Positions 6,370 through 44,939 of a stretch of DNA of 64,000 nucleotides are shown piece after piece. Each line of letters starts with the position of its first letter. The first letter of the stretch is position 1. The stretch spans positions 1 to 64,000 of the forward strand of contig SADC01000090.1 in the NCBI GenBank assembly GCA_004194705.1, read 5' to 3'. The translations under genes were made by a program, and so were the position numbers. The stretch comes from Ditylenchus dipsaci. Its lineage: Eukaryota; Nematoda; Chromadorea; Rhabditida; Anguinidae. The notes under the pieces were generated by a model. That model worked only from the letters and a program-made list of their open reading frames with translations, made no database searches and was not told the origin of the DNA.

Positions 6370-9300
6370 TTAAGTACTACCGTATTGGAATTTGAGGGTG
6401 TGGCAGCCATGTTGCTCGTGTTTTTGACGCTCAGCGTTTGAGGTGAAAATTTTGCCGCATCCGTTTAGACATGCAAACCTAGAAGTAAATAATTTAAATT
6501 AATTATTTTTTGGTTGAATTGCAAAAATACATCGCTTGCTTCAAGCAAGTTTCGTGAATCAAGCATGATTCAAGATTCTCGCAAACTTTTAAAAATTCTG
6601 ATATTCCTTTTTTGAGCCACACAATTTCACAGACTCTGGGTAGGACTAGAGCTGGGTTTCGCGGGGATTTTGTTTTAACCAGGGAACCTTCAGATGTGTT
6701 TTTTTTTTCAAAGACTTCATTGAGAGATTTTTTTGAGATTCTTGTAGAGCACCCCAAAGTTACATTAAAAAGTGCTGCTGATATGTCCAGGTCTTTTAAA
6801 AATTAGGGACCAATGGCTACTTAAATTTACTGATAAACCATGATACGGGTATCATGGTTTTTAGCCTGCTTTAATGAGAGTAAAAGATAACAGCAATAAA
6901 AGCAGCGAATAAAAAATTGTCCAACCTCCTGGGCTGCATATGCCTCTTCTGGATGTGAGCATTTAAAAGCCCTCCGTTGATAAATCTCTGACCACACTGG
7001 GCATCTGCAATGCAATTGATTAAGCCACAAAAAAATCGAAGTTGCATGAACAGTTTCAAGTAAGGCTTCTATTTAAATTCTGTCCAAATTTTTTTAGGCT
7101 TGTAGAAAAAAGGAAGAAATTTCGACAACTATTAAGCCCATACTTTCCAGCACATAACATGAAAATATAAAAAACCTGGGCAATGGTAAGGCTTTTGGTC
7201 CAAGTGTCGACGGAGGTGCATTCTCAGGGTAGTGTTTTGGGCAAAGCTGGCTGCACAGATCTCACACTGAAAACAGAGTGATTAACAATTAGATTTAAAA
7301 TTTATCAAATCCTACTTTAAATGGTTTTTCTTTAGTGTGGGTTCTCATGTGAGCCTAAAAACAAAACTTCATCGCACCTGCTTGATAATACTCAAAAAAA
7401 TAACATGCCGCAATTTTGGAAGGATATTTGAGCTCAAGGCCACAGTGTTCACATGTGTGGAAAGTGGCTTGCCGCCTGGAATGGGGTGAAGCCTTGTCCA
7501 CGGATTTACCTTCTGCTACGGCATCTGGAAAAAATATTTTTCTAAATTTAATTTTCACGAAACAATTTTTAAGCTATTTTCGGCGCTGGTAACGAATAAT
7601 AACCGCCCCCTCCCCCTACCAAAAGAATCAGACGTTTTAAAAATCGCTGTAACTACCCTATAAAACAACAAGTTTAGTCTCGGGGATAGGCCAGCATACG
7701 GAAGTTATGACTAATAAGTGTGTTACATATTTTTTCTGGGTGTAGAACATTAATTTGGGTACTTTCCATTAAAGTAAAAAAGTGAAAATCAATGGGGGGG
7801 GTGGGTATTCGCTACTAGGGTCCTATTTTCTCACCTATTATCCAGTCCAAGTTGCGCGCAGGCTTTGGCTCAGCCACCTCCTCTTCTTCCAAACCTCTTC
7901 TAAAGTCTGTTGCAGACATTTGAAGTCTTCGACCAGCCTTGGATGTAGAAGCAACAATCCTATTGTCCAGTGTCTGTGGAGCTGCAAATTCATAGAGGGC
8001 TGAGTCAACGAACACTTTCTGTAAATTTATGTTTGTTGTGCGACTTTACAAATTTATAAATCTAAAAATACCTCAACTTCCTCCTGGTCCTGTCGTTTGC
8101 GTCCTTTGCTTGGAGGCTGAGATTTTGCTGGATAGACGGGAATGGAACGGCGAATGGAACGACGAATTGGCTGCAAAGCCATTGCTGGACTGTTAGCCTG
8201 CATCTCTGATTTTTGCGGCTCTTCACATTCGTCAAACTCTTCATGTTCCTCTTCAATAAAGTACTCTACTCGAGGTTGGTGTTGACGGTGGTCATTTTCA
8301 ACTGTTTCTATAGCTAATGATTCTTCTTTGATGAGTTGAGGAGAATCTTGAATTTCAATTCCAATTGATATTCCAGCTGAAATGATTATTGGGCATTTTT
8401 CAAGGTCAAATACAGTAGTTTAAAATGACTATTTCAAAATTGCGCAATTTTAAAGTTTCGGTTACTTTACCCAAGAATCGGCATTAGGTGAATTGCCCTA
8501 CAGTAAATTCCCCACGGTAAATTCCCCCACGGTAAATTCCCCCACAGTAAATTCCCTACATGGTAAATTCCCCACAGGTAAATTCCCCTACATTTTGTAT
8601 TGAAATGAGTTCACTTATGAGTTCACTTATTTAACAGCTAGGATTCTTAATACCTGACAAAGGACCTACTCTTAATCCCCACGGTTATCCCCACTTCGGA
8701 TGGCCTATAGATTCTATAAGTGGTTAACTTACCCACCCTACGGTTTACTTACCATATACGTTGTTTATCTTTCTAATCTTGGGTTATAAAAACCCTTGTA
8801 GTGTTGTATCCACCCATACGGTGGTTTTATTATTTAATTAGTACATACCCTTTCCATACCCATCTAGTGATTTTTATCTACTGCTTTGATGTTTTCAATG
8901 TTTACAATTTCTTAGATATGATATTTTTAAATAAATCACATATTAGATAATGGACTCATGCTTTTTCGACTTGGTGTAATTATGATGAAGTAAGTGAAAT
9001 TTTAATGATGGCCGGACATCAAAAAATTAGCCTGATTGCGGCCAAGGCTTTGCAAAAGTGCACCAAAATATTACTTGGATTACTGAAAACATTTTTTACA
9101 AAACCAAACATCTCCAAAAACTGTTTACTGTACAAATTACAGAATTCTAGCACCCTTGGTACAGCTGAACAGTGCAGTGAATTAGGGTATTCAGCTAGTT
9201 CAGATTTTTTTATGGTTTTCATTTCGAAATAACGATTGAACGTAATGACGAAAACTCAAAACATAACGTTTTGCCCATCTCAACTTCTTTTTACATTTTT

Positions 9301-12300
9301 GAACTATTACAGTCGACCCCGCAATCGGATAACTACTTGGCTTGGTCGGTTCATAAATTATCTAGCAGAATTGAGGATGATTGATAGTGAAATAATTAAA
9401 ACCGTTTGGGCTATTTACAAAAAAAATATGTAAAATCTTCTCAAGACAAAATGTAGGGGAATTTACCTGTGGGGGAATTTACCTGTGGGGGAATTTACCT
9501 GTGGGGGAATTTACCTGTGGGGGAATTTACCTGTGGGGAATTTACCGTGGGGAATTTACCGTGGGGGAATTTACTGTAGGGCAATTTACCGTCGCCCCAA
9601 GAATCAGTTTCTTTATGGAAATGATGTGCTTCTGTTGTTTCTCATAGATCACGAAATTATGGGGAGGAGAAGATTGGTGTGATTCAAATTGCTGCAAAAG
9701 TAGTCGGTCATATTTGGCAAATACTGCCGAATATGACCGACCATTTTTGCCCCTGGCCTCTCTTTCCTATACTTTTTAGTTCAGATCAAACTTTCTTTAT
9801 TCATTGCTGTGCTTCCGAAAAAATTTCGCACTCTCCATGGCTAATTGTTTCTAGTGAGTCAGGTTTTATATTTTGAGATGAACACCAAATTTGTGAAATT
9901 CGGCACCCAAAATTTTTTCTTGCGTCATTTTCAAATCTTAGTCGAAAATTCGAAATCGAGCACTCGATTCGACAACTCTAGTCGAAAATAATAAAGTTGA
10001 GCACTCAAGTCTTTTTGTTGCCAAAATTTAAGTTATTTTCGTCCGCTTTCCATCAATGATAAGAAACGGCGTTTCTAGGAGAAAGACGTCTTCCGAATAC
10101 CCACCACTTGTGGGGAACGTTTTAAAGAGCAATTTTACGACGAGATATTAATTTCTTCAACGCCGGGAAAGTGCATTTTCATGTCTAGTTGCCCCCCCCC
10201 TAATGCAACACCCTTTTTAAATAATGATGGAAAACTTGACAAAATGGTTTTACAGTCGAACCTCCCAATAGTGTATCCCCCCCCCCCCCAAAGTTTGTTC
10301 CCGCCTAAGGTCCGACACTTTTTTCAGCTCGATTTTCTAATTTTTTTGCTGATTCTGTTTTGAAATCTGATCTTCGGCATCTGATTTTGCCGATCGTTTT
10401 TCATTTGTCTATATATATTTTCTCTAAAAAAGCAAAACCTCCCAATAGTGTACATCTTATTTTCAAAGTGGTGTACACTATTGGGAGGTTTTGCTTTTTT
10501 AGAGAAAAAATATATAGACAAATGAAAAACGATCGGCAAAATCGGAATCCTTACGATATTTGCGGCCAGACTGTAAAAACAGAATCAGCAAAAAATTAGA
10601 AAATCGAGCAAAAAAAGTGTCGGACCCTAGGCGGGAACGAACTTTTGGAGGAGAGAGGGGGTACACTATTGGGAGGTTCGACTGTATTGTACAGGGTGTC
10701 CCAAGAAATTTTATACACTTTGAAGAGTCATAACTTTTTTTCTGGAGTGAATTTTGAAAAACTGTCAATGCAGATCGACTCAGAATCGCATGACAATTTT
10801 TTTGGTATATAAAGTCAAAAACACGATTTTCGCTTGGTCCCCCTGTGGTTTGCGCCTTGCCCATCCAGAGACCATCCGAAGTCCAGGACCCGAAACACAG
10901 GGGGGACCAAGCGAAAATCGTGTTTTTGACTTTATATACCAAAAAAATGTCATGCGATTCTGAGTCGATCTGCGTTGACAGTTTTTCAAAATTCACTCCA
11001 GAAAAAAAGTTACGACTCTTCAAAGTGTATAAAATTTCTTGGGACACCCTGTATTTTGGCTATGGTCTGAAGAAGCCGCTGGAAAAATGAAGAAAGGTGT
11101 TGTAATTTCATAAATGTGGTGCTAAAATTTGATTTTATGATGAGGTGCGGTTAAATTGTTACTTTAAGCTCAGAAAGAAAGTGCTTGACAAAGTTCAGGG
11201 AAAAGCTGAGAGGTCGCTGCGCCAGTGCGTCCGCATCGGACTCTACCATCTTCAATCTAAAGCAAGAGGTTCGGGAATCCTCTATGTGTGATGAAAAGCC
11301 GAATCTGCGTCGAAAGAGATGGACTGAAAAAGAAACGAAGCGTCTCAAGGTTGAAATCTTATTTAAATTTAGAGAACTGCATAGCTTGTTTTAGAATATC
11401 CTGAAGCTTGCTGTCAATCCTCAATCAGACGAAGACTGGAAAGCAGTGGCCAAGTCAGTAGGTCAAAGTAGAATTATTTTACCGATGCGATGAAATTCCA
11501 TTTGATTTATTTTATATTCCCTTCAGAACTGGTCAAGAATGTAAGCAGCAAGCCAAGAAGATTCAATGGGCTCCGCCAATCAATTCAATGAGCTCCAAGC
11601 TTTCGGTCTGTCGTGATAGTGATGAAAGTTTCGAGGATGACGCTAGCTCTCGCAAAGATAGAAAAATGAAGCCAAGAAGGGAAAGCAGCTTTCGAAGAAG
11701 CGTTAATGAAGCTGACTTTTTCGCGGTTCAAGACAGGCATCGATATGTAAGCCATTGCTTCGGCTGTCTTTTATACCGTTCACATTATTTTTTTTGTAAT
11801 TAGAGTTCATCTTTGGAGCTGGATCCTGACGACTCTCTCCTGCAAGTGCTGTGTTCTCCGGATTTCGGATCAGTGTCAAGAAATCCGCGAAAGCCGTTTT
11901 TGATGAAAATTGCCGTTGATAGTCCCTTGAATCTTAGTGCTACATCTCGTCATTGATTCTGTTTGTTTAATTGACCCATTTTTTTCACCAATGAACTCAT
12001 TCTTTGCATATTATTTTCTTGGGTTTTATCAATGGGGAATTATCTGTGTGTGTTATGGATTCATTACGTTTCTGATGTTGTTTTTATTTCTAATTCTTCT
12101 GATGCACCAGGCATTGCTCTTAAAGACTCTATGGAAATAAAAGTGCCTTACTTGAGTTTGCATTCCTCTTCCTTGTGTGACTGCGTGCTGTTAAAAACGG
12201 ATTAGGCAGCTGTCTTCTCCTTGAATCATTCCTTTCCATGTATGTATCACTGATCTCTTCAGTATCCGTACTTTCGTCAACATTCTCTGAACATTGAACA

Positions 12301-14904: not shown

Positions 14905-15835
14905 CCGTATTTCCTCTAATGAGGCGGTATGCTTTAATAAGGCGGCACCTCCTAATTTTTTACTAAAATTTCAAAGTTAAGGCCATTTTGATCGACAATT
15001 TTCAGATTTTTAGGATTTTCAAAAGAATAATATTTTTTGCCCGCAGAATACTCGTTTTAGCCCGCAGAATATTTTTTTTGCCCGCAGATTTCGAATGCCC
15101 GCAGAATTCTTGTTTTTGCCCGCAAAATTCTCTTTTTGCCGCAATTTTTTTTTCGCCCGTAGATTCAAAAATTTTGCGGAAATTCAAATTTTATCGTCAG
15201 ACAAAAACTTGGATCGCTCAGAATCCCACCCAGAGTGGCCAAAAGCCGCTGAAAGTTGGTTTTTATAGGGGTTTACCAAAGGGGGGTGAACTTTTGGCGA
15301 AAAAATCGATTGCACGCATCAGAATACCACTATGATCGGCTCAATCGCCCAGAATCCCACCCTTGACCGTCCAGAACCACCCTAAAATCTGTCCGAGATA
15401 GTTTAATGCTGTCTAGGAGTGGTTTAAAGTAGTTTAAAGTGGTTTTAGGTGGTTCTGGATGGTCAAGGGTCGGATTCTAGGCGATTGAGCCGATCATAGT
15501 GGTATTCTGATGTGTGCAATCGATTCTTCGCCAAAAGTTTATTCTCCTTTAGTAAACTCCCGAAAAACCAACTTTCAGCGGCTTTTAGCCACTCTGGGCG
15601 GGATTCTGAGCAATCCAAGTTTTTGTCTGACCATAAAATTAGAATTTCCGCGAAATTTTCAAATCTACGGGCGAAAAAATAAATTCTGCGAGCAGAAAAG
15701 AGAATTCTGCGGTCATTCGAAATCTGCGGGCAAAAACAAATATTCTGCGGGCAAAAACGAGTATTCTGCGGGCAAAAAGAATTACCACCCTTTTCAAAAA
15801 TATGGCGGCATGCCGCCTTAACAGAGGAAATAAGG
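14905..15835. mobile_element. Foldback element with CTGCGGGCAAAAA arrays
   Basis: The ends (ccgtatttcctctaatgagg / aggaaataagg) are flanked by TTA on both sides. Inside lie inverted arrays of a ~17-bp unit (ttctgcgggcaaaaacgag; left 15040-15165, right 15665-15790). A palindromic core shares the words ctgaaagttggtttt and gccactctggg with the element at 5430-6092. The core has a run of degenerate ggtggttt words near 15400-15475. No coding capacity. Confidence 0.78.
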
Positions 15836-16392
15836 TTAATGGGGCATGCTTTTTTAGGCTTTACATAGCTTTGACAATTAGATAATTCAAAAAGCGCCTA
15901 TTTGAATAATCAGATACTTCAAAAAGATGATATTACGCCAATTAAGATAGTTCGCCAATCGCTTATTTCGTTTATAATACGTTTTAACTAGGGTTGTCAA
16001 ACGTTCGAAATTTTCGAACGTTCGATTCGACGAACATTCGAAGTTTGAAATTTTCGAACGTTCGGTTCGATTCGAAGTTCGAGTTCGAAATTTTCGAACG
16101 TTCGGTTCGATTCGAAGTTCGAGTTCGAAAATTTTCGAACGTTCGGTTCGATTCGAAGTTCGAGTTCGAAATTTTCGAACGTTCGGTTCGATTCGAAGTT
16201 CGAGTTCGAAAATTTTCGAACGTTCGATTCGAAATTTTCGAACGTTTGATTCGAAGTTTGAATCATACAATTTTCACATGTTCGATTTATAAAGTTCTGA
16301 TTATTTCGAATTCAAGCTTTGAATCTGACATTTATTCTATGCTAGTTTTTATGATTCTGTAAATGTTCTTGATGCTTTTAGTTTAACAGTTA

Positions 16393-16618
16393 TGCCGAGT
16401 GACGTTTGGCAACTTTTGTGAAAAAGGGCGACAAGGCAGTTTGCAAGTGTGGTGCTGAATATTCGCTTGGAAAAAGTGGAGCCACAACAAATCTATCTTC
16501 TCATCTACAATCTGCAAAACATAACGAAGCTATGGTAAAATTCGATGGTCCAAGCGCAAAGAAGGCACGAACGGAAACACTCCCTTCGATATTCAGTCCG
16601 AATTACTCGAAAGTATGA
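16393..16618 (+). pseudogene. hAT transposase N-terminus (BED zinc finger)
   Basis: From the ATG at 16393 the frame reads MPSDVWQ, then shifts by one missing base in a T run near 16402-16406. It continues FVKKGDKAVCKCGAEYSLG, with a downstream Leu and HLQSAKH that complete a BED finger (CxxC...HxxxxH type). BED fingers bind the element's own ends. The frame then runs out. About 75 bp separates it from the C-terminal exon, where roughly 300-400 residues of RNase-H-like core would normally be. Confidence 0.8.
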
Positions 16619-16692
16619 CAATTCAAAAAAATTTTAATTTTATTGACCTAATTTATTAGATTATTATTATCACAAAAACCTTTCTTTCAAAG

Positions 16693-17064
16693 GATGAAGT
16701 CGACCGTTATCTGAATGAGCCAAAGTTGCCAACGCCAAACCCGGGTTATCATGGCCATGATGACATATTTAAATGGTGGCAGAAGAATTCTCCAAAATTC
16801 CCTCATCTCGCAATTCTGGCTCGTAAATACTTGTCCATTTCGTTATCCAGCGTTGCATCAGAAAGGTGTTTTTCCAAAGCTTCTCTTCTCTTCGCTAACT
16901 CTCTTCGATCCCGTCTACCAAAAGATGCTGCAGCCAACCTTCTTCACATCAAAACCGGGCTGGCGGATTCAGTACTAGAGGATGCCAGAAGCAAGAATAC
17001 TGAAGAACCGGAAGAAATCATCAATATTTTGATGGGAAATTCCGTAGATTTCGAAGAATTTTGA
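16693..17064 (+). pseudogene. hAT transposase C-terminal dimerisation domain
   Basis: After an acceptor-like ctttcaaag the frame encodes DEVDRYL, DIFKWWQKNS, FPHLAILARKYLSI and SSVASERCFSKASLL. This is the conserved hATC dimerisation region (WW, ARxYLxI, SERxFS). It ends with an acidic tail and TGA at 17062-17064. With the BED exon it shows the element is an internally deleted hAT copy, unable to make a catalytic enzyme. Confidence 0.9.
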
Positions 17065-18022
17065 TTTATTTGGTTGTTATAGTTTAATAAAGGTCACGAA
17101 ATTATGACTAAAATTATAAAAATATTTGGTAAAAAGTTCTAAATTTCCCTAATTACACGTCCGATTCGAATTCAAGAATTTTCGAATCGAGCGTTTGGTT
17201 CGAAGTTTGAATTCGAAAATTTTCGAATCAAACGTTTGGTTCGAAGTTTGAGTTCGAAAATTTTCGAATCGAACGTTCGGTTCGAAGTTTGAATTCGAAA
17301 TTTTCGAATCGAACGTTCGGTTCGAAGTTCGAGTTTGAAATTTTCGAATCGAACGTTCGGTTCGAAGTTCGGGTTCGAAAATTTTCGAACGAACGTTCGG
17401 TTCGAAGTCGAACGTTCGAGAAAATCTCGAACATTTGACTCGAAGTTCGAAATCGAACGTTCGATTCGACAACCCTAGTTTTAACAATCGGATGATTTAC
17501 CGAAAACTACTTCGACAATCACTAACTTTGCCACATAGTTTTCTGTGTTCCCTAACGTCTGCGCACTGTATTGTCGAAATATGTGCTATGGTGAAATGTA
17601 AATTAGCTAAATATACTGAATATGAATCATCCGATTGTCAAAACGTATTATAAACGAAAAAAGCGATTGTCGAACTATCTTAATTGGCGTAATATCATCT
17701 TTTTGAAGTATCTGATTATTCAAATAGGCGCTTTTTGAATTATCTAATTGTCAAAGCTATGTAAAGCCCTTTTTTATAAACACAAATGAAAGTTCATCCG
17801 CTTGGCCATCCGCCCACTATCCAGAGAATGGACAAAATCGATAACATGTGATGTTATAAAAACTGTCCAATCCAGATGTATTGATTTATGTTGGTATTCG
17901 TGGGCCTGGGTAGAGCGATCAGGTTCAGTCAGCCGGCTCCTATTGGTCATATGGTTGGTGATAGTTGGTATATATAGGCACTGTTTCTGGCTCCTCACCG
18001 AACACATAGTTTCCTTCCTCAT

Positions 18023-20600: not shown

Positions 20601-21129
20601 AAAATTGAAAGCGTCTCAACAAGAAAATAACTCATTTTTCGGTTCTAATATGTTCAGTTTTGGGCAGCTTTCAAAATTTAAAGTTGCACTACCACGGCTA
20701 CCTACTTCTACCTAGATAACCGAGTAGAAAATTAATCTCTACAAGGCACTGCGCTTTCTTCATCGTTCCTGGTCGGATGTTAAACCGGAAACTATCGCCA
20801 ATTGCTTTCGAAAAGCCGGATTAATTAAAATTCAATTCATAAAAAATTTCCGTTTTTCAAGGAAGGCACTTACAATCAAGAAGATACATCGATAGATCAG
20901 GAAGGCGCTGGCGATAAGGTGGATCTCGAAAACGCCAGTAATTTATAAAACACACTTTGGGCGGAATTGCAGCCGCTGGATTTGGTGAAAGGCACATTGG
21001 ACCGTACACACTCATTTGATCACAACTCATTTGATCCCAACTCATTTGATCCCAATTTCAATAATTTGGATTTCAACGTTTTGGAAAGCATGGTGGTCTT
21101 TTTTTAGTTCTATTTAGTAGAAAAATCTT

Positions 21130-21850
21130 TGTTAATTTTCTGGTTTTAGCAATACCGATGGCTATGAAAGTGATTGATGCCTTGCTAAGCGGTGTGCCTA
21201 ACGAAGGTGAAGTTTGCGTGATCAACCATCTTTTTAGGTAGAGAACTTTTGTTTATTTTTTTTATCTTTTATTGTGTATTTTAGAGGGTTTTGTCTTGAA
21301 CGAATCGAGAGGAGCATTGCTTGGTCGCCAGTGGCTATGACTTTGTAAAGAGCAGGGTAGTGAGCGACGGGACAATTTGAAACTGGCGCTGCATTAAGAC
21401 GAGCAAGTGTAACGGTACGGCGAAAACCATCTTTGGGTCAGTCGTCGGTCTTCGCATACTCAATTGTCACATCTGCATACAGAGTCCTGATGCCATGTGG
21501 TAATTTATCAGTTTTCCTTTTTCAAAACGATGTGTGTGTTTACAGCGTCAGAATGTTAGTGAAGGTTAAAACTGCTGCAATCACCAATTTGTCTCTTTGT
21601 CTACTGAAATCGTGGTCTCAGAAAGGGCCGGCTTGACATATGCTCAGCTTTTGTCGTTGTCGACAGATAAACCTTTGCAAGATCGAATTCTTCGTCAAAG
21701 AAGCCAGCTGGTTCCACTAGCATCGATAAGCCAGTGAAGGAAATCGAATGGTCAGATCGAATGGAGTGCCTAAAACCCATACAGCATCATCTGGAAAAGT
21801 TTCCAATTGTAGAGATGGGAGAAGAAGAAAATGAGGAATTCCAAAACTAA
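21130..21850 (+). other. Coding-like DNA inside foldback element, unidentified
   Basis: A stretch at 21150-21239 reads MAMKVIDALLSGVPNEGE and ends at a donor (TTTAGGTAGAG). Further exon-like pieces with plausible acceptors follow to about 21850, where an acidic tail (VEMGEEENEEFQN, stop) appears. I recognise no domain. It could be the remains of the element's own gene. Confidence 0.3.
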
Positions 21851-21893
21851 TATGATGTTTTGCGTTTGTCACTTTCGCTTGTTTGTTACAAAT

Positions 21894-22878
21894 GCACTTA
21901 AAGGGCTACAATTATAGCCTACTACTTGTTATAAAAATATCAATTTTGCGCGATTGCTTGAGGCGGTTTGGAAACCCCCTCCTTTTTTCTCCGACAATTG
22001 ATAGCGGACGATTTTTTTTTCAAGCTGATTGATTTTAATTTTTTATATATTGTCAACTTTTAATGACTTTTTGTAAGCCCTGTTCCTCATCAACAATTTG
22101 GTATATAAAACTTTTTTTTGAATTATTATACGGAAAATTATGACCATAGAAATAAAAGTGTCGATTTCTAGTCAAATTCAAATAAAATGTAAGGAAAATG
22201 GTTGTTTGACCACATAATTAAGAGGTTTTCTCAAAAATTTAAAATCAAAATTTACGCCCTTTTGCATTTTTTGAAAGCTCTATGATTTCTCTACAAAATG
22301 ACATTTTGATCGTTGTCGTAGGACCACTCTGCACTGAGATACAGATAGGTTGAATTTGAAAACCCTGAAAAAGTGCCCTTTTGCCTTATTTTAAGCCATT
22401 TTTCAGGGTTTTCAAATTCAACCTATCTGTATCTCAGTGCAGAGTGGTCCTACGACAACGATCAAAATGTCATTTTGTAGAGAAATCATAGAGCTTTCAA
22501 AAAATGCAAAAGGGCGTAAATTTTGATTTTTAAATTTTTGAGAAAACCTCTTAATTATGTGGTCAAACAACCATTTTCCTTACATTTTATTTGAATTTGA
22601 CTAGAAATCGACACTTTTATTTCTATGGTCATAATTTTCCGTATAATAATTCAAAAAAAAGTTTTATATACCAAATTGTAGATGAGGAACAGGGCTTACA
22701 AAAAGTCATTAAAAGTTGACAATATATAAAAAATTAAAATCAATCAGCTTGAAAAAAAATCGTCCGCTATCAATTGTCGGGAGAAAAAAGGAGGGGGTTT
22801 CCAAACCGCCTCAAGCAATCGCGCAAAATTGATATTTTTATAACAAGTAGTAGGCTATAATTGTAGCCCTTTAAGTGC
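21894..22878. mobile_element. 985-bp near-perfect palindrome
   Basis: The left arm begins GCACTTAAAGGGCTACAATT, and the reverse complement ends the right arm at 22878. The arms of about 480 bp differ at only a few positions (for example tccgaca against gtcggga) and meet near 22390 around gttttcaaattcaacc. Arms this similar imply recent formation or continual repair. There is no protein. It lies wholly inside the 21010-23502 element, so it is either nested or the core of that element. Confidence 0.88.
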
Positions 22879-23725
22879 TCTACAAAACTGCCTATCGCGA
22901 TTTTTAAAAGCATTTAAAAATTGTTACGAAAAAACAGTAAGTCTAATAATAAACGTGCCGTCCGCTATCAATTGTCCGAAACTGTAAGTAATTTTCGGTC
23001 TTTATGGTTCAGCCTTTACGAAAAATAGAAAACAACAACAGAGCCCACAAAGAGAAGGAGAGCACATTATTCGATGATCTGGAAATTTCCGGATGGTCCA
23101 GGTTGACTCATACTTAGATGATCGATCAGTCAACAGGTCGGTTCGTCAACTAAATATCCAGGTGCTTTAGAGCCGTTCGAGGTTTTTTTAGAGTGGTTTG
23201 AAGTAGTTCGGGATATTTTAGGTGTTCAGTGTAGTATGGTCTCCCTAAAACAGATTTGCCCCGAAAAGATTATGAAAGAAGCACAAAAAAGTTAATGCTA
23301 CTAGGCGGTTTCAAATCATAATACTGACTGGGGAATGACTGGACGATAAATTTGCCGGGGAATGAATTTACCGGGAGTGAACTAGCCTAGTACCGAAATT
23401 GAGATCAAATGAGGTGGGATCAAATGAGGTGGGATCAAATGAGTTGGGATCAAATGAGTGGGATCAAATGAGTGGGATCAAATGAGTTGTGATCAAATGA
23501 GTACGAACCCATTGGACGACTGTTTATCGTTGTATCACCAACTCCCTACTGATGGGACGCTCAATCTGGCCGAAATTGCAACGTTTGTCTAAACGGAAGT
23601 GGAAGAGCCGGAGACGGAAAGGAAATTATTTTGTTTTGCTGGTTCTTTAATGGATTTTTCTTTAAGTGATACTGTTATTGATAGAGATTGACCAAGTGCC
23701 AGAACCACCAGTCCCTTTTTAGGAC

Positions 23726-24729
23726 TGCCCAGCAACCGGATACAAATTGTAACCGGATACAGCAACCGGATACACTTGCAACCGGATACTCTTGCAATCG
23801 GATACAGCAAGCGGGTAAAATTTTTTGAATATGTTATTAAACCAACCCAAATAATGAAAGAAACATTTATTCAACCTTACTTCAACAACAAACCAAGATA
23901 ACATTTAAACAAAACAAATAAACCACAATTCATCGTCTTGTGCGAGGACTTCACGAAACTCTGCGAAGTTGATCCCCATTAGACTGCCGATTCTTTTCAG
24001 ATATTTGTGCATTCGGTGACCACATTCTTCGCCGCAGTTGATGCCTTCAAGCGTCGCTAGAAATTGCAGCAGCTTGTCCTAAATTCATAAATTCACCACA
24101 TCTAAGTTGAGCAACGCTTCCTTGACCAATAAATAATTAGTCAACTCAGTCTGTCCATTGTAACAAAATGCTCACCTTTTCCCACATGCGCTTATATAAC
24201 AGTTCCGATTTTTCCATGAGCAAAAGTTGTGACTGCTGTGTGTACTTTGACTGCGCGACGAGAAGATAAACATATCATAATCTGAAATATAATAATTTGT
24301 GTAGGACCTACTGACAAAAAGACTAACCTCCATACAACAACAGCCTTTCCTGAAACAATTGATCTCCGGGCTTTGCTTCTGTTCCATGCATAGTCATCCC
24401 GATTGTTCGATACTATAGTCCACACGTAGCATTTCGTTCTGTCCTTCGTGAAGCTGATCTGGGCTGTCCTTGCTCCAATTCGTTGCAAATGTGTCATCTC
24501 TACGTTAGCCATGGCGCAAGATCTGAGAATAGAATAAAACTTTGAAATTCAATACATTAAATCAGTGCGAACCAAATAAAACACAGAGCAGAAAAACAAT
24601 GAATAGACGGCGCAAAAATAACAGCAACACATTTCGCGTATGCGGTCGCTGTATCCGGTTGCAAGTGTATCCGGTTGATGTATCCGGTTGCTGTATCCGG
24701 TTACAATTGGTATCCGGTTGCTGTTTTAC
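23726..24729. mobile_element. Foldback element with GCAACCGGATAC arrays
   Basis: The 12-13 bp unit agcaaccggatac is repeated about six times at 23730-23812. The complement is repeated at 24645-24722. The outer ends agree in inverse (agcaaccggatac, then aattgtaaccggatac). A 13-bp direct repeat ccctttttaggac flanks the element (23713-23725, 24730-24742), compatible with a 9-11 bp MULE-type target duplication. Between the arrays is an intron-containing gene on the minus strand. Confidence 0.85.
23905..24512 (-). CDS. Unidentified small gene carried in foldback element
   Basis: The first exon (ATG at 24512) reads MANVEMTHLQRIGARTAQIS and continues to KAVVVWR before a donor near 24331. A short Gln/Leu-rich exon (YTQQSQLLLMEKSELLYKR, ending WEK) precedes a GT donor at 24176. 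The last exon, 24078-23905, encodes LLQFLATLEGINCGEECGHR and later INFAEFREVLAQDDELW, with TAA at 23907-23905. The exon 2-3 junction is in phase; exon 1-2 needs a one-base shift. No domain is recognised. Cys/His spacing in the last exon (CGEECGHRMH) might bind metal. It lies wholly within the element's terminal arrays, so it is either the element's own gene or a captured one. Confidence 0.5.
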
Positions 24730-24742
24730 CCCTTTTTAGGAC

Positions 24743-27856: not shown

Positions 27857-27981
27857 TATGTTGCCTTAAGTATTCGCTCTATTAAGTGTAATTGTTCCTT
27901 AGCGCAGGGCGTAGTTGCAGGGCGGAACATACGCCAACAATTTTACTTGCGATTTAGGAGACCGTATTGGTTGTAATGCAG

Positions 27982-28715
27982 GGGATCAGGACGTTTGAGT
28001 CCCGGGCCGTTTGTGTCCCACGGCCGTTTGTGTCCCGGCCGTTTGTGTCCCGGCCGTTTGTGTCCCAGGCAGTTGGGGTCCCAGGCAGTTTGTGTCCCAG
28101 GCCGTTTTACTCCCCAGCCGAGCAATCAATGCTCCCAGCATTGATCCCGCATTTGGGCCCGCATTTAGGCCCCAATTATAAAAATTTTATATTTTTCAAC
28201 GCAGATGTGTTGTACGTATTAGAACTGGTGCTGCACCAAGAAAAAGCTATGTGGGTCATCAAAGGGTCAGCCATTATCCCGTACCATGTACCCCAAAGGG
28301 TCAGCCCTTATCCCGGACCATGTACCCTCAAAGGGGCTTCCTATTGAATTAGGTTGCCTGCCGAAGGCAGGCAGGTAGAAAATCTAGAAAAGTCAGAATT
28401 TTCGATGGATTGTATGCGGAGGGGCCCAAACGCGTAGTAACCGGAAGTAGACCGTAAAGGCTGAATGGCAGCTTGCTGTTGATTTTCTTCATCGCTTGAA
28501 TAGTCACTGAGGCCATTTACAATTCTTCGGGCCAGTTCTGTAGTAGCATCCAACATCAGATCTCTAGATAAATATCAGTTTAATTCACGAAACAATTTCT
28601 TTTAACAAAACAAAAACATTTTTTGAAAATGAATAATAGTTGTGCGGGGACTCAAACGGCCTGGGACACAAACGGCCGGGACACAAACGGCCCGGGACTC
28701 AAACGTCGCGGACCC
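27982..28715. mobile_element. Foldback element with CCGTTTGTGTCCC arrays, 9-bp TSD
   Basis: An exact duplication GTAATGCAG flanks it (27973-27981, 28716-28724). The ends (GGGATCAGGACGTTTGAG against the complement of CTCAAACGTCGCGGACCC) lead into arrays of a 12-15 bp unit (ggccgtttgtgtccc; left 28005-28105, right 28648-28690). It inserted about 190 bp downstream of the beta-tubulin stop. The interior holds an exon-like open frame on the minus strand. Confidence 0.9.
28341..28563 (-). other. Exon-like frame inside foldback element
   Basis: After an acceptor (ttatctag, 28564-28571) the frame encodes LMLDATTELARRIVNGLSDY, then SSDEENQQQ and RSTSGYYAFGP, ending TAG at 28341. Composition looks like a disordered C-terminal protein tail. 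Its phase would accept the exon ending at 29847 of the upstream zinc-finger gene, but that gene has its own in-frame stop there, and this exon lies within TSD-bounded mobile DNA. It is either element-borne or captured sequence. Confidence 0.4.
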
Positions 28716-29011
28716 GTAATGCAGACATCTATGCCTCTGTCAGCCTTTCTTCCCCAATTTGGATATTGAAACACAACCTGCTTATCCACCCTTAATTGAT
28801 GTGGTATTAACCTAGAAACTTTTGGGGTATCTTTACGTTTTGTCTTTTTTAATGAACTTTCCAACAGACTTTCAGCTTCCCCACTATTGGATATAAAATA
28901 TAATTTTAGAATTGGACCTCTGCCAAGGTATAAATTACCATGTCCCTGAATAGAACACTCTGGGATTGTTTATATGGTAAACTGAATTATGTGGAGATAT
29001 ATACTTTTTTA

Positions 29012-29842: not shown

Positions 29843-32800
29843 TCACCTTTTTATGCCTGCATGGACAATCCTTTCATGTTCGTTTCTCGCAGCTACACTA
29901 ACAAATTTCATCCCACAATCCCAAGTGCATTCGTGAGGTCTTTCACCTAAAGAAAACAATCAATTTCCACAATTATTATTTTTTCAATCAGTAGACTTTA
30001 GGATGGGAAAGGGTCGATTCGTATTCGCAGAATTCGTATTCGGCTTTTTTCGTATTCGGCCAGATTCCTATTCTAAGCAAATTCGGTTATTTGTATGAGT
30101 TAGCGGCGCTACTTGCATATACCCCCCCCCCAATCAACTTTTTTTAAAAGGGTTTCCAAACACCCTATATCGACCTAAAATCGCCTCAGAAGCTCAAAAA
30201 GACAATATTTTTGAGTTCTGGTCAATAAAAGTTGAGTTTTGGGACCACCAAAAAGTACCCTTTGGATCATTTTTTGAAGGAATTTAGGGCCTTATTAGGG
30301 TGGAAATAGACCATAAAGGTGCCAATTTTGAACAAAAAGGAAGATGTTGAACATAGTTATGTATATTGGGGGCGCACCGCTTAAATAAACTCTGGTATGC
30401 ATACATTTTTCATGCATCCAGAGTCACTTTTCAGTGATTTGCGTCTAAGGTATGTGGGTGTGCGCATCTCAACCCTAAGCCCCTGCACAGGGGTTTGAGA
30501 GTTAAAGATGCGCGCACTCACTTACCTTGGACATAATTCCGAGCAAGACTCTTGATCAAAATGTATTTAGAGGCTCTTTTTGCCAAGTCTTATGTTGAAA
30601 AACAGGGACACCCTACCCTCACCCTCGCAATCTGAATTACGGTAAATAGACGTTACGTCAATTTTTTTTATTCAAAAGTTGCTTTGGTCCCCTGTTGTTT
30701 TTTCGAAAAATTTTAGAATGTGTCTGAACCGGCTAGGGGAAGATTGCCAAAACGAAAATTGCCAAAACGAAGATTGCCAAAACGAAAATTGCCAAAAACG
30801 AAAATTGCCAAAACGAAAATTGCCAAAAACGAAAATTGCCAAAACGAAGATTGCCAAAACGAAAATTGCCATGACAAATGAAAGCTTAGTGTATACGAAC
30901 ATATACCACTCAGTTCCACATAACGTACCCTTCATTTATCCATTCGTCTCAAAATGACTCAAGTCAAACCTCGATATAGTGACACCTACAATATAGTGAC
31001 ACCTCAGAGTCAAGACAAATGTCGTTTTGGCAATTTTCGTTTTTGGCAATTTTCGTTTTGGCAATTTTCGTTTTTGGCAATTTTCGTTTTGGCAATTTTC
31101 GTTTTTGGCAATTTTCGTTTTGGCAATTTTCGTTTTGGCAATTTTCGTTTTTGGCAATTTTCGTTTTGGCAATTTTCGTTTTGGCAATTTTCGTTTTTGG
31201 CAATTTTCGTTTTGGCAATTTTCGTTTTTGGCAATTTTCGTTTTGGCAATCTTCGTTTTGGCAAAACATACGTTTGGCAATTGTTGTTTTTGGCAATCTT
31301 CCCCTAGCCTCTGAACCACCCTAAAGTGCTCAAAATTACCTCAAGACACCCAAAACCTCTAAACCCAACTAAAAGTACCCAACACACTTAAAACCAAGAA
31401 AAAAACCACCCGAAACCATCCAAAACTACTCCAAACAAAAATTTTGTGGGAATTTATATTTTCAAGTCAGAACCAACTAAGCCAAGTGGTCGTCCACTTG
31501 GATCAAAATTTTTTTTTTCGTTTTTCAAGTTCCAAACTTCATTTTCTGGACTAATTTGGGCTAATTTGAAAAAAGTCAATAAAAATGAATTAGGTTATCT
31601 AAAAAATTAGACACAAACGGCCTTAGACACAAAAGGTTTAGACACAAACGGTTTAGACACAAACAGTTTAGACACAAACGGCTTTAGGCACAAACGGTTT
31701 TAGACGCAAACGGGGTGTACCCTGAAAAACATGGTAAAACAGGTAAAAAGTCGAAATTCGGAAGTGTCCAAAAATCAATTTTTTTATTCACCAGAACTCA
31801 AAAGTAATATCTTTTTGAACCCCTGAGGTTATTCTGAGTCGATATAGGGTGTTTTAAAATACTTTTAAAAAACTTGATTTGTGGGGGGGGGGTATATGCA
31901 AGTAGCGTCGAGTTAGCTATACCGCATTTTACGAATCTGGCCGAATTCGAAAAGAGCCGAATAAGAATTCTGAGAATACGAATCGACCCTCTCCCTTCAG
32001 GATACCTACTTGTGTGGAACCTCCTAATATGTACCCTCAAAGCGCTGTTTGTGGAGCAGCCGAGTCCACATTCATCACAGAGAAACGGTTTTTCACCTCA
32101 AAATTTTTGTTTTTTAGAAAAAGCTTTTATCATATCTTTACTTTACCAGTATGAGTCCTCATATGTGCTTGTATTTTCGAAGGGTGTTTGAAGATCAGTC
32201 CACAATCCGTGCATTGTGCTACAGTAGGAGGTCTTTGGCGGTGGTCTCTAGAATTTCTCTCCAGTGCGCTAGGGCAACCTCGCTGAACTGTGGCGGTGGT
32301 GGCATTGCAGCCAGCAGCTACTGACTCCACCACACTAGTTATTTTGCGAAGCGCGGTCTCAGATGTTGGCTTTATTATGTCTCCTAACGGGGGCTGCCAG
32401 TTAACTATGGCTGAACGGTGTTGCTGCTGATTTACAGCTGGTTTAATTAAGGTAGTTGCCTCAATATTTGAGTTGAGCCTTTTCTGACTAGTGATCGGGT
32501 TGAAGTTAAGCTTGAGATGTGGTTTCGGTGAGCCCTGCCTAAAATAAATTTTATAGCATTTCAAATATTTTTTTTTATCATATAGATAAAATTTACCTTT
32601 GTAGTCCCCGATGCACCCTGAGCTCATGCCATTACGTGATGCTTTGTTCGGAAACTTTTTGGAACAAAGCGTGCAAGTAAAGGGCAAATCTCCAAGGTGT
32701 CGTTTCATGTGCATCCTGTAGGGGGTTCTTTGCGAAAAATCTTGACCACAAATATCACAAAGGAAAGGCTGAATAAATAGTTTAGTTTTTAGAAACTTTT

Positions 32801-35478
32801 TGTATAAGGAAGTTTTCCGCGTTGTGGAGACGGCTGTACAAAATTTGGTAACAAAACATTTTGGTAACAGCGAAATTTGGTAACAAACATTTCGGTAACA
32901 GCGAAATTTGGTAAGAGCGAAATTTGGTAACAAATTTTTTGATAACGGCGAATTTCGGTAACAAATTTTTTGGTAACAGCGGAATTTAGTAACAAACATT
33001 CTGGTAACGGTTACGGAATGCAGCTTCTAATTGTTCTTGCTCTTTTTTTATTCGCGCCTTATTCCACTTTTGCATAAATTGCACAAAACCTAAAATTGAA
33101 TTCTAGGCCTTGTTTTGTTAGAAACCGAGTCGAAAAGTCCGTACAGAAGTTCAATGATTAGGAAATTTTTTTGAATTCCTGGGCACCACCTCTTATTAGT
33201 ATATGGAACTCTACTCCACGTAAACACTCAAAATTATAATAAAAATAAGATATGCACCTAGGTGGATTAGAACCAGCAACCTCGGCGGTGGCGGTTCTAG
33301 TAAACAATACGTTTCCATTTTTTGCCTTGGTCCCTCCTGTTGCTTTTTTTTTAAAACAGCTTGGTCCACCTGTTGTTTTGATAGTAATCATGGTCAAGGT
33401 GATCATGTTAACCATAATCACCATAAATTATTATATTCACCATATGGCGGTGGCTATCCAAGTGGTACACCAGGTATTGAAGTTGGGGTATGTGAAATCG
33501 AAACTTTGGGCTTAACAAACCCAATTCCCCACACAATTTTAAGTTAGAAAAATGGCTTATTTTTTATTTTTAAGAAATTTTAATTTTTCAGGTTTGGGTT
33601 TTGGTTTGGATATTTAGGGTGGTTTTAGGGTACTTTGGGTGGTTTAGGATGGTTTGGGGTAGTTTGGACACCATCTGAAAATATCAATTTACTTAGATCC
33701 CACGTTGAAATCAGCAAAAACAAAAAATTCGGCGGAAAAATGTCCGACGGAAAAATGTCCGATCCCTATTAGAATATTCAGAAAAAGGAAAGTACAAAAA
33801 GGTAGAAAAGTTCTTAGCAAATCGGGATTTAAGAAAAGAATGCCTTAGCAAATTAATTCTTAACAAATGGGCGCCTTAGCAAAAAAATTCTTAGCAAAAC
33901 GACCGCTTAACAAAAAAAATTCTTCGCAAAACGACTGCTTAGCAAATCGACCACTTAGCAAAACACCACTTAAATTTCGGGGTACAGCCCTTTAAAATTC
34001 ACCGTTACCAAAAACTTTCTTATTAAACCCTTTACCAAAATGTTTGTTACCAAATTTCGCTGTTACCAAAATGTTTTGTTACCAAATTTCGCTGTTACCA
34101 AAATGTTTTGTTACCAAATTTCGTACAGCCGTGGAGACTGCAGCCTGCTGAAAAGTTAGCTTCCCGAATAACCCCAAAATAGTCCTATTTCCTTTCAGTC
34201 GATTTGCTTTTTTGATTTATTTCTGTCGGAAACCTAGCTGTAACCTGTGTTTTGAAAACCAAGTCTTCGTTTCTTAATGCAAGTCGACAAACTGATTTTG
34301 TGCTATCCTATTTCAGAGGCCCACTGATGTAAACCCACTTTTAGAAACAAAACTTACCTTTTCTCCAGTATGAGTTCTCATATGAGCAGCAATCTTGGAG
34401 GGGTGGCGCAGAAAAAGTCCACAAAAATCACAAAACTTTGTCTAAATTTAATTTTCCAATTGTAGAATGATTTTAATTGTGAAAAGCTAAAACACAACTA
34501 ACAGTGGGTCCTTTCCTTCCAAAATCTTGTGCGATGAGCGTCGTTTGACCATCATCTCCCTCACCCTCTTGTTCTCCCAACATACATTGTGTTGGAATGA
34601 CTTGTTCCTCTTCATACTTTCCATCTTTGACACATTCAAAGTATTCATAGTTGTTATTATGATGTTCTTGGCCATAGTTGGATAGCACAGTCAACTGGTC
34701 TTCATATTCATAGCTCTGATCCACATAATTAACACCTGATTTGGATGGAAAGAGTACATGTTCGGAATAGTCAAAACTACTCTCCAGATGGTCGTCTTGC
34801 CAGTGCCTAAGTGAGTAGCCTGTATTCTTGATCAGTGGTGGTTCTTGTTGGAGAGAAGATCTCTCAGCCACTCCATTGATGATGTTGTCCAGATGTTGGC
34901 TGGATGATGATGAACTGTTATTGTTGCCCTTTCGCTTGTCTCTTGTGACCCTAAATACATTTTTGAATTCTGAACAAATCGACCTTTATATTTTTATTAT
35001 ACTACAAGACTTGTTTGAAGACCGTTTCCAACTGCTTGTGAAATAAAAAGGAGAATGGACGGGATTTTTGATACCACTCCCTTTGGATGCGCATGAAATT
35101 GTTTTACTAATATACCTCCCTACTAATATACCTAAATACCTCCGACTGGTTGAAGAAAGATGAATATATTAATTGCATAGAAAATGCCGTTACAAAAGAA
35201 AGCTTATTGGAAAGAATACATCCAGGTAAAGATCCCACAGCGAAGAAAGGAAAAACTGAGGATTACCTGTTTGGTGGGTCAGTTCTTTGTAATTGAGAAT
35301 TAGGCTTTCGGTAGATAAGGTTTTGCTGTGGGCTATTCAGCTTGGGTGAATACTGGAAGTGGACTTGATGGTTCAAAGTGCCGACAACCTCCTCTTTACT
35401 ACCCTCCTGATCCGCACAGACAACAAAATCGTTGGTAAAAGGATGATTTTGATGAGTGTTATCCAAGAAACAATCCAT
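29843..35478 (-). CDS. Two-cluster C2H2 zinc-finger protein
   Basis: Seven exons: 35478-35267, 34950-34503, 34441-34358, 32768-32597, 32538-32147, 32096-32010, 29946-29843. All phases agree and give about 499 residues if one missing C near 32625-32632 is allowed for. The N-terminal ~220 residues are acidic and Gln/Ser/Tyr-rich, typical of activation regions. Cluster one is CDFC (with RHPSKI), CDIC and CTLC fingers. A 110-residue linker follows, then cluster two: CTDC (with KHPSKI), CDEC, and a CTWDC finger ending HAGIKR at TGA. The layout matches the gene at 6370-13475, so the two look like tandem paralogues. An acceptor-like ATTTAG lies just upstream of the start codon. The last intron holds a 2-kb nested transposon and the third a foldback element. 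Confidence 0.8.
30340..30610. mobile_element. Deletion derivative of the 59.4-63.9 kb transposon
   Basis: The words aactctggtatgcat, catgcatccagagtcac, tctaaggtatgtgggtgtgc and, on the other half, gcgcgcactcacttacct and gagcaagactcttgatcaaa match inner parts of the left (60255-60370) and right (63575-63650) terminal repeats of the large element. Here the two halves are joined directly with no gene between. The outermost terminal sequence is not visible. Confidence 0.7.
30731..31309. mobile_element. Foldback element with TTGCCAAAACGAAAA arrays, 8-bp TSD
   Basis: An exact 8-bp duplication TCTGAACC flanks it (30723-30730, 31310-31317). Ends GGCTAGGGGAAGATTGCC and the reverse complement lead straight into arrays of a 15-16 bp unit (gccaaaacgaaaatt). 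There are about nine copies on the left (30747-30868) and about eighteen on the right in inverse (31019-31262). The 150-bp loop contains no gene. Array copy number differs twofold between ends. Confidence 0.93.
31600..31725. repeat. 14-15 bp array, TTAGACACAAACGG
   Basis: The unit ttagacacaaacggt is repeated about seven times with small changes. It resembles the unit of the foldback element at 27982-28715 (gggacacaaacggcc). No inverted partner was found nearby, so it may be a solo terminus. Confidence 0.65.
33180..33480 (-). repeat. tRNA-derived SINE, antisense
   Basis: On the minus strand a B-box-like GCTGGTTCTAATCCACC lies near 33259-33277. The region shares aaacactcaaaattataa and atgcacctaggtggat with the copy near 44040-44100. 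Both copies are followed by tatccaagtggt. This is a recurring SINE family, here inside a foldback element. Confidence 0.55.
33800..33970. repeat. Array of TTAGCAAAACGACC words
   Basis: A 14-25 bp unit (cttagcaaaacgaccgc, ttcttagcaaa) is repeated about eight times. It contains the AAAACG core seen in several other foldback units. No inverse copy is nearby. Confidence 0.6.
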
Positions 35479-37430: not shown

Positions 37431-37433
37431 TGT

Positions 37434-40435
<3,002 letters not shown>

Positions 40436-43441: not shown

Positions 43442-43979
43442 AGAAGGGGATGTCAAAGAAAATTAAATCTACGTTTATCTCTCTTGATTTATCTTCACTA
43501 TTTGTTGCATTTGTCAGTATCATTACCACCTTCATTCTGAAGACATTCGGTTGTAGTGCACATAAAGATATTTTGGAATTTATTAATTTGCTCTCTTTTT
43601 CGGGTCCGCCTCGTTTCCCCTCAAAGTGCGTTTCCCTCAAGCTCGTTTCCCCTCAAAGTTCGTTTCCTCTCAAAGGTCGTTTCCCCTCAAAGGTCGTTTC
43701 CCCTCAAAGGTCGTTTCCCCTCAAAGGTCGTTTCCCCTCAAAAGTCGTTTCCCCTCAAAAGTCGTTTCCCTCAAAATAAGTTCCCTTCAAAATAAGTTCC
43801 CTTCAAAATAAGTAAATAAATAAGTAAAGTTTACCCCGTGGTACCTACCCGAGGGGGTATCCACATCCAGAATCCAAAATTTTAGATTTAGCTCAAAGTA
43901 ATTGAAAACCCAAGCGATTTAATTCAAAATTGCGTTCTGAAAACGGTTAAATTTGAAATGGGAGTCCTCTACTCGAGAC

Positions 43980-44160
43980 TGATTGCACCCAGATGGGGTC
44001 GAACCAGTAACCTTGGGAATGAGTATATGAACTTTTACACCACTTAAACACTCAAAATAATGATAAATAAAGGTATGCACCCAACTGGATTTGAACCATC
44101 ATCCTAGGCGATGTCTATCCAAGTGGTCGTCCACTTGGATCAAAATATTTTTTACGTTTT
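43980..44160 (-). repeat. Two SINE heads in tandem, antisense
   Basis: Minus-strand B boxes lie at about 43990-44010 (TGGTTCGACCCCATCTGG) and 44082-44100 (TGGTTCAAATCCAGTTGG), each followed by remnants of the same body. The second carries the tail tatccaagtggtcgtccac shared with the copy at 33.3 kb. Confidence 0.6.
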
Positions 44161-44200
44161 CGGGTTCCAAAACCATTTTTCTGAACTGATTCGAGCATGC

Positions 44201-44345
44201 TGAAGATGGTTTGACAGTGGTAAAATCACGTTTTATCGAGAAATTTTTGAGTTATTGTGAACTCTTAATTTATCAAAATCAAGAATTTACTATAACTCAA
44301 AAATTTCTTCATAAACGTTATTTTACCACTGTCAAACCATCTTCA
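44201..44345. repeat. 145-bp hairpin
   Basis: The stem tgaagatggtttgacagtgg pairs with ccactgtcaaaccatcttca at the other end, and pairing continues inward through aaaaattt. Ends and size suggest a short MITE nested in the foldback element. Confidence 0.7.
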
Positions 44346-44939
44346 GTGTGCTATAATTAGTGCAGAAAAAGTATTTTAGAAGCCGAGAACGTAAGCAAAA
44401 AATTTTTGATCCAAGTGGACGACCACTTGGATATTGTATCCGCGGGGATATTGTGGCCCAGGGATATTGTGTCCGTGTCCGAAAATATATATAGACGATT
44501 GAAAATTTTCTATAACACAATAAGAGTGAATATTTTATTTTTGACGTACAAGTGGTTACAAAAACATTATTCGAAAAGTCTTTGGGACTAAAATAAAACC
44601 AACGATATTTCATGCTTTTTGTATTACATTAGTTTATTTTGATCGAATTGTTTTTAGAAAAATTATTTTTAAGGGAATCGACACTTAAGGGGAAACGACC
44701 TTTGAGGGGAAACGACCTTTGAGGGGAAACGAACTTTGAGGGGAAACGAGCTTGAGGGGAAACGCACTTTGAGGGAAACGAACTTTGAGGGGAAACGAGC
44801 TTGAGGGGAAACGCACTTTGAGGGGAAACACCCGTGTCCCCTCTTTTTCGCCCAGACAATAATGTTGGTTGTTTTTTTATTTTGTAGACATTAATTCAAA
44901 ATAATAAACCACCTGCGGAAATGCGTCAAAATTACGGTA

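Follow-up and report, generated by a model that had tools for sequence, protein, structure and literature searches.

Foldback-like Mutator elements probably account for most minisatellite-ended transposons in a contig of Ditylenchus dipsaci

Why should so many transposons lying close together each end in a minisatellite of their own? The question is raised by a stretch of 64,000 nucleotides of contig SADC01000090.1 of the nematode Ditylenchus dipsaci, here called the window, in which the terminal inverted repeats (TIRs) of numerous elements consist of tandem arrays facing each other in inverted orientation. The original prediction saw in them foldback transposons with unrelated units, produced by some general conversion of TIRs into arrays. 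The observation is real and is mostly explained by foldback-like Mutator elements with inherited array ends. It is probable that the window elements are mostly non-autonomous foldback-like Mutator-like elements (MULEs), whose array word is inherited with the transposase lineage and forms putative docking sites.

The eight elements first listed, E1 to E8, were all recovered. Arrays located with Tandem Repeats Finder (TRF) coincide with the predicted coordinates, and an end-repeat search revealed exact flanking direct repeats of 8-13 bp, taken as target-site duplications (TSDs), in 8/8 elements; repeats of at least 8 bp occurred in 4/210 mismatched left/right pairings of all 15 candidates and in 39/3000 random placements. 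E1, a non-autonomous foldback element (8480..9596), has arrays at 8486-8592 and 9452-9590 built of the 15-16 bp unit GTAAATTCCCCCACA and lies between 9-bp copies of CCAAGAATC (8471-8479 and 9597-9605). E4 (27982..28715) carries the unit GGCCGTTTGTGTCCC at 27987-28107 and 28647-28705, flanked by the 9-bp TSD GTAATGCAG (27973-27981 and 28716-28724), and the 579-bp E5 (30731..31309) carries GAAAATTGCCAAAAC at 30739-30871 and 31022-31301, flanked by TCTGAACC (30723-30730 and 31310-31317). In E6 (32832..34130), with ends GGCTGTAC and TSD GTGGAGAC (32824-32831 and 34131-34138), the unit AAATTTGGTAACAGCG fills 32841-33010 and 34032-34123. E8 (43602..44840) has the unit TCGTTTCCCCTCAAAGG at 43611-43775 and 44673-44829 and the 9-bp TSD CTCTTTTTC (43593-43601 and 44841-44849); for E1 and E8 the TSD length given by the search program is one base longer than the letters given here. 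E7 (38462..39078), a member of a 21-bp class, shows the unit TCCCGACAAATCTGTGAAAGT at 38560-38611 and 38932-39072 and the 9-bp TSD CCAAGAAAA (38453-38461 and 39079-39087). The exact ends of E3 (23726..24729; unit near GCAACCGGATACA; arrays 23730-23814 and 24638-24724) are uncertain, its 13-bp direct repeat CCCTTTTTAGGAC lying at 23713-23725 and 24730-24742. E2, a hAT element (15989..17477), has arrays at 16003-16287 and 17165-17431 and the 8-bp TSD GTTTTAAC (15981-15988 and 17478-17485); its TRF unit of 40 bp, with 13-bp sub-periods, departs from the 11-25 bp at first ascribed to all units. A ninth clear case, X21010, had been counted among seven elements without a clear TSD; once its boundary at 21010 is shifted, it spans 21003..23509 (arrays 21010-21055 and 23399-23502; 15-bp unit ACTCATTTGATCCCA) and has the exact TSD CATTGGAC, at least 8 bp long (20995-21002 and 23510-23517).

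The flanks of the elements, joined with one TSD copy, were searched against the organism's own genome (226,978,389 bases in 1359 contigs), and empty sites were found for four of the nine elements. That of E1, at C189:3903-4342, matches at 99% over 440/440 bp and may be an allele or a paralogue. E2 and X21010 have 22 (96-99%) and 15 (87-95%) junction-spanning empty places, respectively, which are other copies of the repeat that received the element, and E5 has two, on C347 and C215 (95%). In these four elements the outcome is the opposite of empty sites lacking a TSD, which the original prediction had named as evidence against itself. The search was uninformative for E4, E6, E7, E8 and two further elements, X29012 and X45432, which gave no junction-spanning match among the 40/249 candidates scored, the matches being to the window's own flanks or to a one-sided repeat fragment; the empty site of E3 was not resolved among the 40/4,153 candidates scored. 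Nesting was observed in L006, a copy of the E1 family in which an element with GGCTAGG ends sits at E1 position 901-908: an E1 without the insertion shows a single ATTGATAG at this point, and L006 has ATTGATAG on the right and a one-base-shorter copy on the left. TSDs, empty sites and family copies show that the window elements are or were mobile. As to their targets, 9/23 TSDs from the window and sampled loci hold an A or T run of at least 5, compared with 7.9% for 9-mers across 264 kb of the genome (binomial test, p=3.7e-5), a figure biased because TSDs are easier to find in homopolymers and the 23 were hand-picked; an insertion preference for A/T runs is possible. Elsewhere, at G000:C854:219661-227566, four matches about 2,603 bp apart suggest tandem duplication of a 2.6-kb unit.

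The units are not private to each insertion, as had been supposed, since both families tested are multi-copy: with 40 candidates scored in each case, the E1 family yielded 114 matches (298 first-look candidates) and the E4 family 212 (849 first-look candidates). A wider survey covered the window and twenty 10-kb stretches regularly spaced on four contigs longer than 1 Mb, 264 kb in all; the contigs were chosen through known E1 matches, so that the sample is not strictly random. With a TRF score of at least 50 and a period of at least 7, and with self-complementary units excluded from pairing, 192 arrays were found, filling 17,364/264,000 bases. Neighbouring arrays have a common unit in inverted orientation in 38/633 pairs and in direct orientation in 8/633, compared with 17/14,856 and 18/14,856 for arrays from different stretches, which places inverted unit-sharing of neighbours at about 50 times background. 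When 27 candidate pairs were inspected by score for TSDs, several were clear and had matching ends (L016, L018, L020 and twice in L027), many were plausible and some were doubtful or absent (e.g. L011, L013, L022 and L024). At L022:6859-8532 an E1-like unit lies in the opposite, outward orientation, perhaps marking the facing ends of two adjacent elements.

The connection with MULEs comes from loci that carry a transposase. A genome search with the PF10551 (MULE) profile gave at least 115 matches (150/504 candidates scored), from which 21 loci were picked: three were fetched at 5.5-6 kb, and for another eighteen, chosen to be varied and low in stops, the sequence retrieved covered the domain and its 3′ side, eight of these being extended. 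In 3/3 whole loci the arrays lie inverted on both sides of the domain, with the units TCGTTTGTTCGAAAAGT in L029, CTTCATTTCGTAACAG in L030 and TCCCCTAAAAGTTCGTT in L031; taken with the TSDs and the four empty sites, this arrangement bears out the description as foldback-type transposons. An array of 14-17 bp TRF period occurs on the 3′ side in 18/21 loci, that of L045 appearing also as a 30-bp doublet and that of L039 having only 3 copies. Such arrays are common in the survey (67 in 264 kb, or about one per 3.9 kb), so that a lone array is weak evidence. The repeat of a unit across independent loci of one transposase family is stronger evidence, and identical or nearly identical units were found in L029/L033, L034/L044, L030/L036 and L038/L048. 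The element at L030:1276-4757 (3,482 bp) has the 8-bp TSD CTGCAAAA, ends GGCTGTAC and a nested element of the 21-bp class inside; L029 and L031 show no clear TSD, that of L029 being at best decayed. In Phantom and Tm1 elements a FLYWCH zinc finger precedes the MULE domain. Here a same-strand FLYWCH match lies no more than 1.5 kb upstream of 30/115 listed MULE matches (144 listed FLYWCH matches, 150/429 candidates scored). Among the fetched loci FLYWCH occurs in 6/21, namely in 6/9 of those best matching reference B and 0/12 of those best matching A or C; in L029 its E-value is 2.6e-10.

If array words are inherited with transposases, the two should diverge together. For 16 loci (L033, L038 and L043 were dropped as duplicates, and L037 and L041 for want of a unit), amino-acid distances over a 117-column alignment were compared with circular distances between units written by hand at 15-17 bp from TRF. 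The two distances rise together (Mantel r=0.578, p=1e-4), and they do so too in the 10 loci that are more than 30% divergent (r=0.341, p=0.011), for which the reverse-complement control gives r=-0.149 (p=0.78). One exception is L035 and L048, with a protein difference of 25% and a unit distance of 0.93. Above about 50% amino-acid distance, the mean unit distance is about 1.0, near the shuffled value of 1.07 (standard deviation 0.14), and the period is kept, being 14-17 bp in all 16 MULE-linked units used. Orientation is also retained. An orientation-flip test gave p=0.0002 over 120 pairs and p=0.0004 among 15 non-autonomous units, and over the 93 pairs more than 50% divergent it shows that distant units have a greater likeness in the inward reading than in the reversed one (p=0.0026). 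The units of the MULE-type majority thus follow transposase distance, have oriented similarity across distant families and keep to 14-17 bp in 16/16 cases, and the claim that they are unrelated is not supported.

As no MULE core match was found within the window, MULE membership of E1 and E4-E8 rests on similarity of units, ends and TSDs. The nearest MULE-linked units lie at 0.24 for E8 (L031, a FLYWCH-MULE locus), 0.27 for E5 (L049), 0.40 for E4 (L034) and 0.50 for E6 (L030), with 0/60 shuffles as close in each case. E6 and the MULE-bearing element of L030 also have the same ends GGCTGTAC, the same TSD length and a related unit. The TSDs of E1, E4-E8 and X21010 (8-9 bp) and of L030 (8 bp) fit the MULE range of 8-11 bp, usually 9. 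Asymmetric 7-bp end motifs together with a variable number of tandem subterminal units were recognised by eye in E1, E4, E8, L009, L012, L017, L019 and L029, the motif letters differing between them; E5, E6, L020 and L030 have symmetric ends without such motifs. L029 and L019 have the end motifs GGGACACG and GGGTACGC in common and different units, and E8 has GGGACACG at one end.

Several points weigh against this assignment. The 21 MULE loci were hand-picked from the 115 listed matches and are not random; three of them are without a 14-17 bp array, L037 having other periods only, L041 having none and L043 having been read unextended. Units assigned at a single locus (L032, L040, L042, L045, L047 and L049) could be neighbouring arrays, and the match of E5 depends on one of these, L049. 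The nearest MULE unit of E1, at 0.67, is borderline (10% of shuffles are as close), the match of the L017 unit is weak (30%), and E3, X21010, X45432 and L009b match no MULE unit better than shuffles do. The proteins compared are MULE matches and not complete transposases; over the full set of 16, the reverse-complement control also shows a weak correlation (r=0.278, p=0.006); and the 15 non-autonomous units include two related pairs, E1/L017 and E5/L020, which contributes to their p=0.0004. The correlation of units with transposases could also be expected from plain descent, functional coevolution being unproven. Finally, the 21-bp class (E7, L016, L018, L027 and others), which has TSDs and GG-type ends, is linked to no transposase: its long copies of the L016 family at C295:80141-83209 (3.07 kb) and C1138:337359-339574 contain none of the listed MULE, FLYWCH, hAT or Merlin matches (hAT and Merlin compared by eye).

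Judged from sequence comparison, the arrays are probably transposase docking sites. Each TIR would be an array built from a 14-17 bp word passed down together with the transposase lineage responsible for moving the element, each unit providing a docking site for the DNA-binding domain of the transposase. Many copies in fixed orientation and spacing would raise specificity and transposase capture. Drift of the DNA-binding domain could be followed by the spread of a new word through the array, by slippage or by unequal exchange, and each lineage would come to possess a lock-and-key minisatellite of its own. Variants of this habit in some hAT, Merlin and Harbinger-like elements may have arisen by convergence. 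Binding of this kind has a precedent in Galileo, in which THAP domains bind sites within the tandem repeats of long TIRs (PMC3688188), and a survey of arthropod MULEs considers that long TIRs may supply several transposase-binding sites (PMC13359780). A more far-reaching version is tentative: a MULE radiation within one genome, each lineage locked to its own minisatellite, in which domain and 14-17 bp word would change together at fixed spacing and orientation, arrays would insulate lineages, the genome's minisatellites would largely be debris, and hAT and Merlin elements would have converged. The spacing of 14-17 bp would then correspond to about 1.5 helical turns, and that of 21 bp to about 2 turns in the second class. 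Paired arrays do peak at periods of 15-16 and 21 bp, but helical quantisation is a suggestion only, since unpaired arrays share these peaks.

The principal alternative is that a general mutational process, such as replication slippage where ends form hairpins or the repair of gaps left by excision, makes arrays of any TIR, the units being arbitrary. It would account for copy numbers that vary between ends and copies, and for arrays outside MULEs. E2 belongs to a hAT family with arrays at both ends: besides its 8-bp TSD, it has ends TAGGGTTGTC and an open reading frame (ORF) fragment of the hAT C-terminal dimerisation domain at 16660..17064 on the plus strand (PF05699, E 1e-15). hAT ends are of the CAG/TAG type. 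Searches gave at least 150 hAT (PF05699; 150/2005 candidates scored) and at least 124 Merlin-type matches (PF12762; 150/259), and seven hAT and four Merlin loci were read on one side, the 3′ flank. L064, a copy of E2, has the same 3′ array; among the other hAT flanks, L062 has a 20-bp array, L060 has 2.8 copies of 40 bp, L059 has 3.6 copies of 27 bp, L058 and L061 have weak repeats, and the array of L063 resembles a nested element. Among Merlin flanks, a 33-bp repeat is present in 2.7 copies in L065 and arrays of 19-20 bp occur in L068; repeats of 24 bp in L066 and of 21 bp in L067 number about two copies each. The claim that arrays extend across superfamilies therefore stands for E2, and at the 3′ end for L064, with the arrays of L062, L065 and L068 seen on the one side read. 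Small elements at about 380-570 of L063 and 355-560 of L068, near hAT and Merlin matches, have inverted ends like CAGTC(A/G)A(C/G)TCTCGAT and are another short inverted-repeat family.

A Harbinger-like element also bears on this alternative. Harbinger elements have a DDE_Tnp_4 nuclease and a 3-bp TWA TSD. X56889 (56889..58345) contains short arrays of 13-20 bp, an ORF at 57162-57650 and a MADF ORF at 57651-58079, both on the minus strand; the first has no Pfam match of its own, its relative P0003 carries PF13359, and with flanks TAA and CAA a Harbinger TSD could not be shown. Of the hAT, Harbinger and MULE-like interiors predicted for the window, hAT is thus supported by PF05699 in E2, Harbinger remains a likeness, and the MULE core was not found. 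Against a general process, MULE-linked units track the transposase, have oriented similarity and remain at 14-17 bp. In six copies of the E1 family, moreover, the two arrays within a copy resemble each other no more than arrays from different copies do (0.219 versus 0.262), and nothing therefore indicates that each insertion remakes its arrays. A process turning TIRs into arrays is therefore unsupported for the MULE-type majority, and we consider it unlikely as the general explanation.

Another possibility, drawn by analogy and distinctly unlikely, is that the arrays bind an element-encoded anti-silencing or regulatory factor instead of the transposase, as do VANC targets in the VANDAL elements of Arabidopsis. 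Those targets are tandem repeats that vary between related elements, and they change together with the VANC proteins (PMC5735166). They are, however, located in non-coding regions (PMC5735166), while in most window elements the arrays start within about 10 bp of the termini, and both arrays are retained in short non-autonomous copies, E5 (579 bp) among them. VANC is an anti-silencing protein; none was seen in the present elements, in which no systematic search for a second ORF was made. Lastly, that transposons by chance entered or adjoin unrelated minisatellites is extremely improbable: arrays fill enough of the surveyed sequence (17,364/264,000 bases) to make neighbours common, but the excess of inverted sharing over background (38/633 against 17/14,856) and over direct sharing (38 to 8), the TSDs directly outside the arrays, which oppose it for the other five elements, and the four empty sites, whose places lack arrays, contradict it and rule out chance arrays.

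Foldback-like MULEs with inherited array ends are closest in anatomy, among known systems, to Tm1 of Meloidogyne, a Mutator/Foldback element with one family of units of about 14 bp and a FLYWCH-MULE transposase (PMC3169594). As described there, Tm1 has a 9-bp TSD, tandem units whose number varies between ends, asymmetric 7-bp end motifs outside the inverted repeat, comparable to those of E1, E4, E7, E8, L019 and L029, a transposase with FLYWCH and MULE domains as in L029, and mostly short non-autonomous copies. Its one unit family contrasts with the 16 MULE-linked unit consensuses found here, and its FLYWCH domain with one whose detection here was confined to loci from a single MULE group out of three (150/429 candidates scored); the E6/L030 group differs from it in its symmetric GGCTGTAC ends and 8-bp TSD. 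Homology of units to Tm1 Motif C (CGATTCAGTATCGC / CGTTTCAGTATCGC) found no support, the best distances of 0.87-0.88 being equalled by 80-86% of shuffles.

FB/NOF and Tetris serve together as foldback-like comparisons. Tetris of Drosophila virilis, placed in Mutator by its authors, resembles the present elements in its TIRs with internal tandem repeats and its TSD of 8-10 bp, and differs in being one family with units of about 220 bp and no known transposase (PMC4079207). Galileo of Drosophila has long, internally repetitive TIRs whose tandem repeats hold extra transposase-binding sites, but its transposase is of the THAP type of the P superfamily (PMC3688188), whereas MULEs predominate here. 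VANDAL elements are similar in that the tandem target motifs of related families are not the same and evolve along with a binding protein encoded by the element (PMC5735166). Rehavkus has a 9-bp TSD and a minisatellite before the 3′ TIR, Tribolium Rehavkus-1 having tandem 164-bp units in its inverted ends; it is described from arthropods and annelids and has a PHD finger (PMC6446971, PMC10218199), which a Pfam scan of eight ORF pieces from L029, L030, L031 and L044 (partial proteins) did not reveal. Tandem TIRs are also reported for plant MULEs (PMC3310237). A literature search, mostly outside subscription journals and Repbase, found no account of numerous unit-specific MULE families within a single animal genome.

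The remaining window elements are less complete. X29012 (29012..29508; 24-bp unit; arrays 29019-29109 and 29418-29504) has an imperfect direct repeat of 7/8 bp, CTTTTTTA/CTTTTTCA, seen by eye, for which the end-repeat search gave none. For the elements at 3250, 5430, 14905, 45432 and 56889, neither that search nor inspection revealed a convincing TSD, as originally predicted. X45432 (45432..46428) has inverted ends GGTTATGCGTAATCTGTGCGCCG and arrays at 45440-45588 and 46262-46422. X3250 (3250..3585; arrays 3275-3353 and 3406-3554) is apparently a decayed copy of the 21-bp family that is intact in L016, with family ends GGCTCATACTGATTTGG; X5430 (5430..6090, right end approximate) has inverted ends ACACACACCAAAATACTGATTT and arrays of 21 and 55 bp, and X14905 (14905..15836) has 21-bp TGCCCGC arrays at 15024-15165 and 15723-15778. 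A 55-bp tandem repeat of 5.9 copies at 2568-2890 has no inverted partner in the pairing list. Rfam gave no match in the window, and its ORFs include DUF1280, beta-tubulin and G-alpha (Pfam). Between E3 and E4, at 26119-27227, lies a piece of a beta-tubulin gene (PF00091), whose tubulin-like residues go on, by eye, in a second overlapping frame. On the minus strand, a C2H2 zinc-finger ORF (32130-33026) extends into an E6 array, which places E6 inside or adjoining a C2H2 gene.

Three things are new: the count of lineages found in a single genome, the link that ties units to transposases, and the narrowness of the period range. The literature covered treats foldback elements family by family. In this genome, many MULE lineages coexist with differing words, which makes it possible to test why the ends of foldback elements are tandem. 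Array-ended transposons also offer a source for part of the genome's minisatellites.

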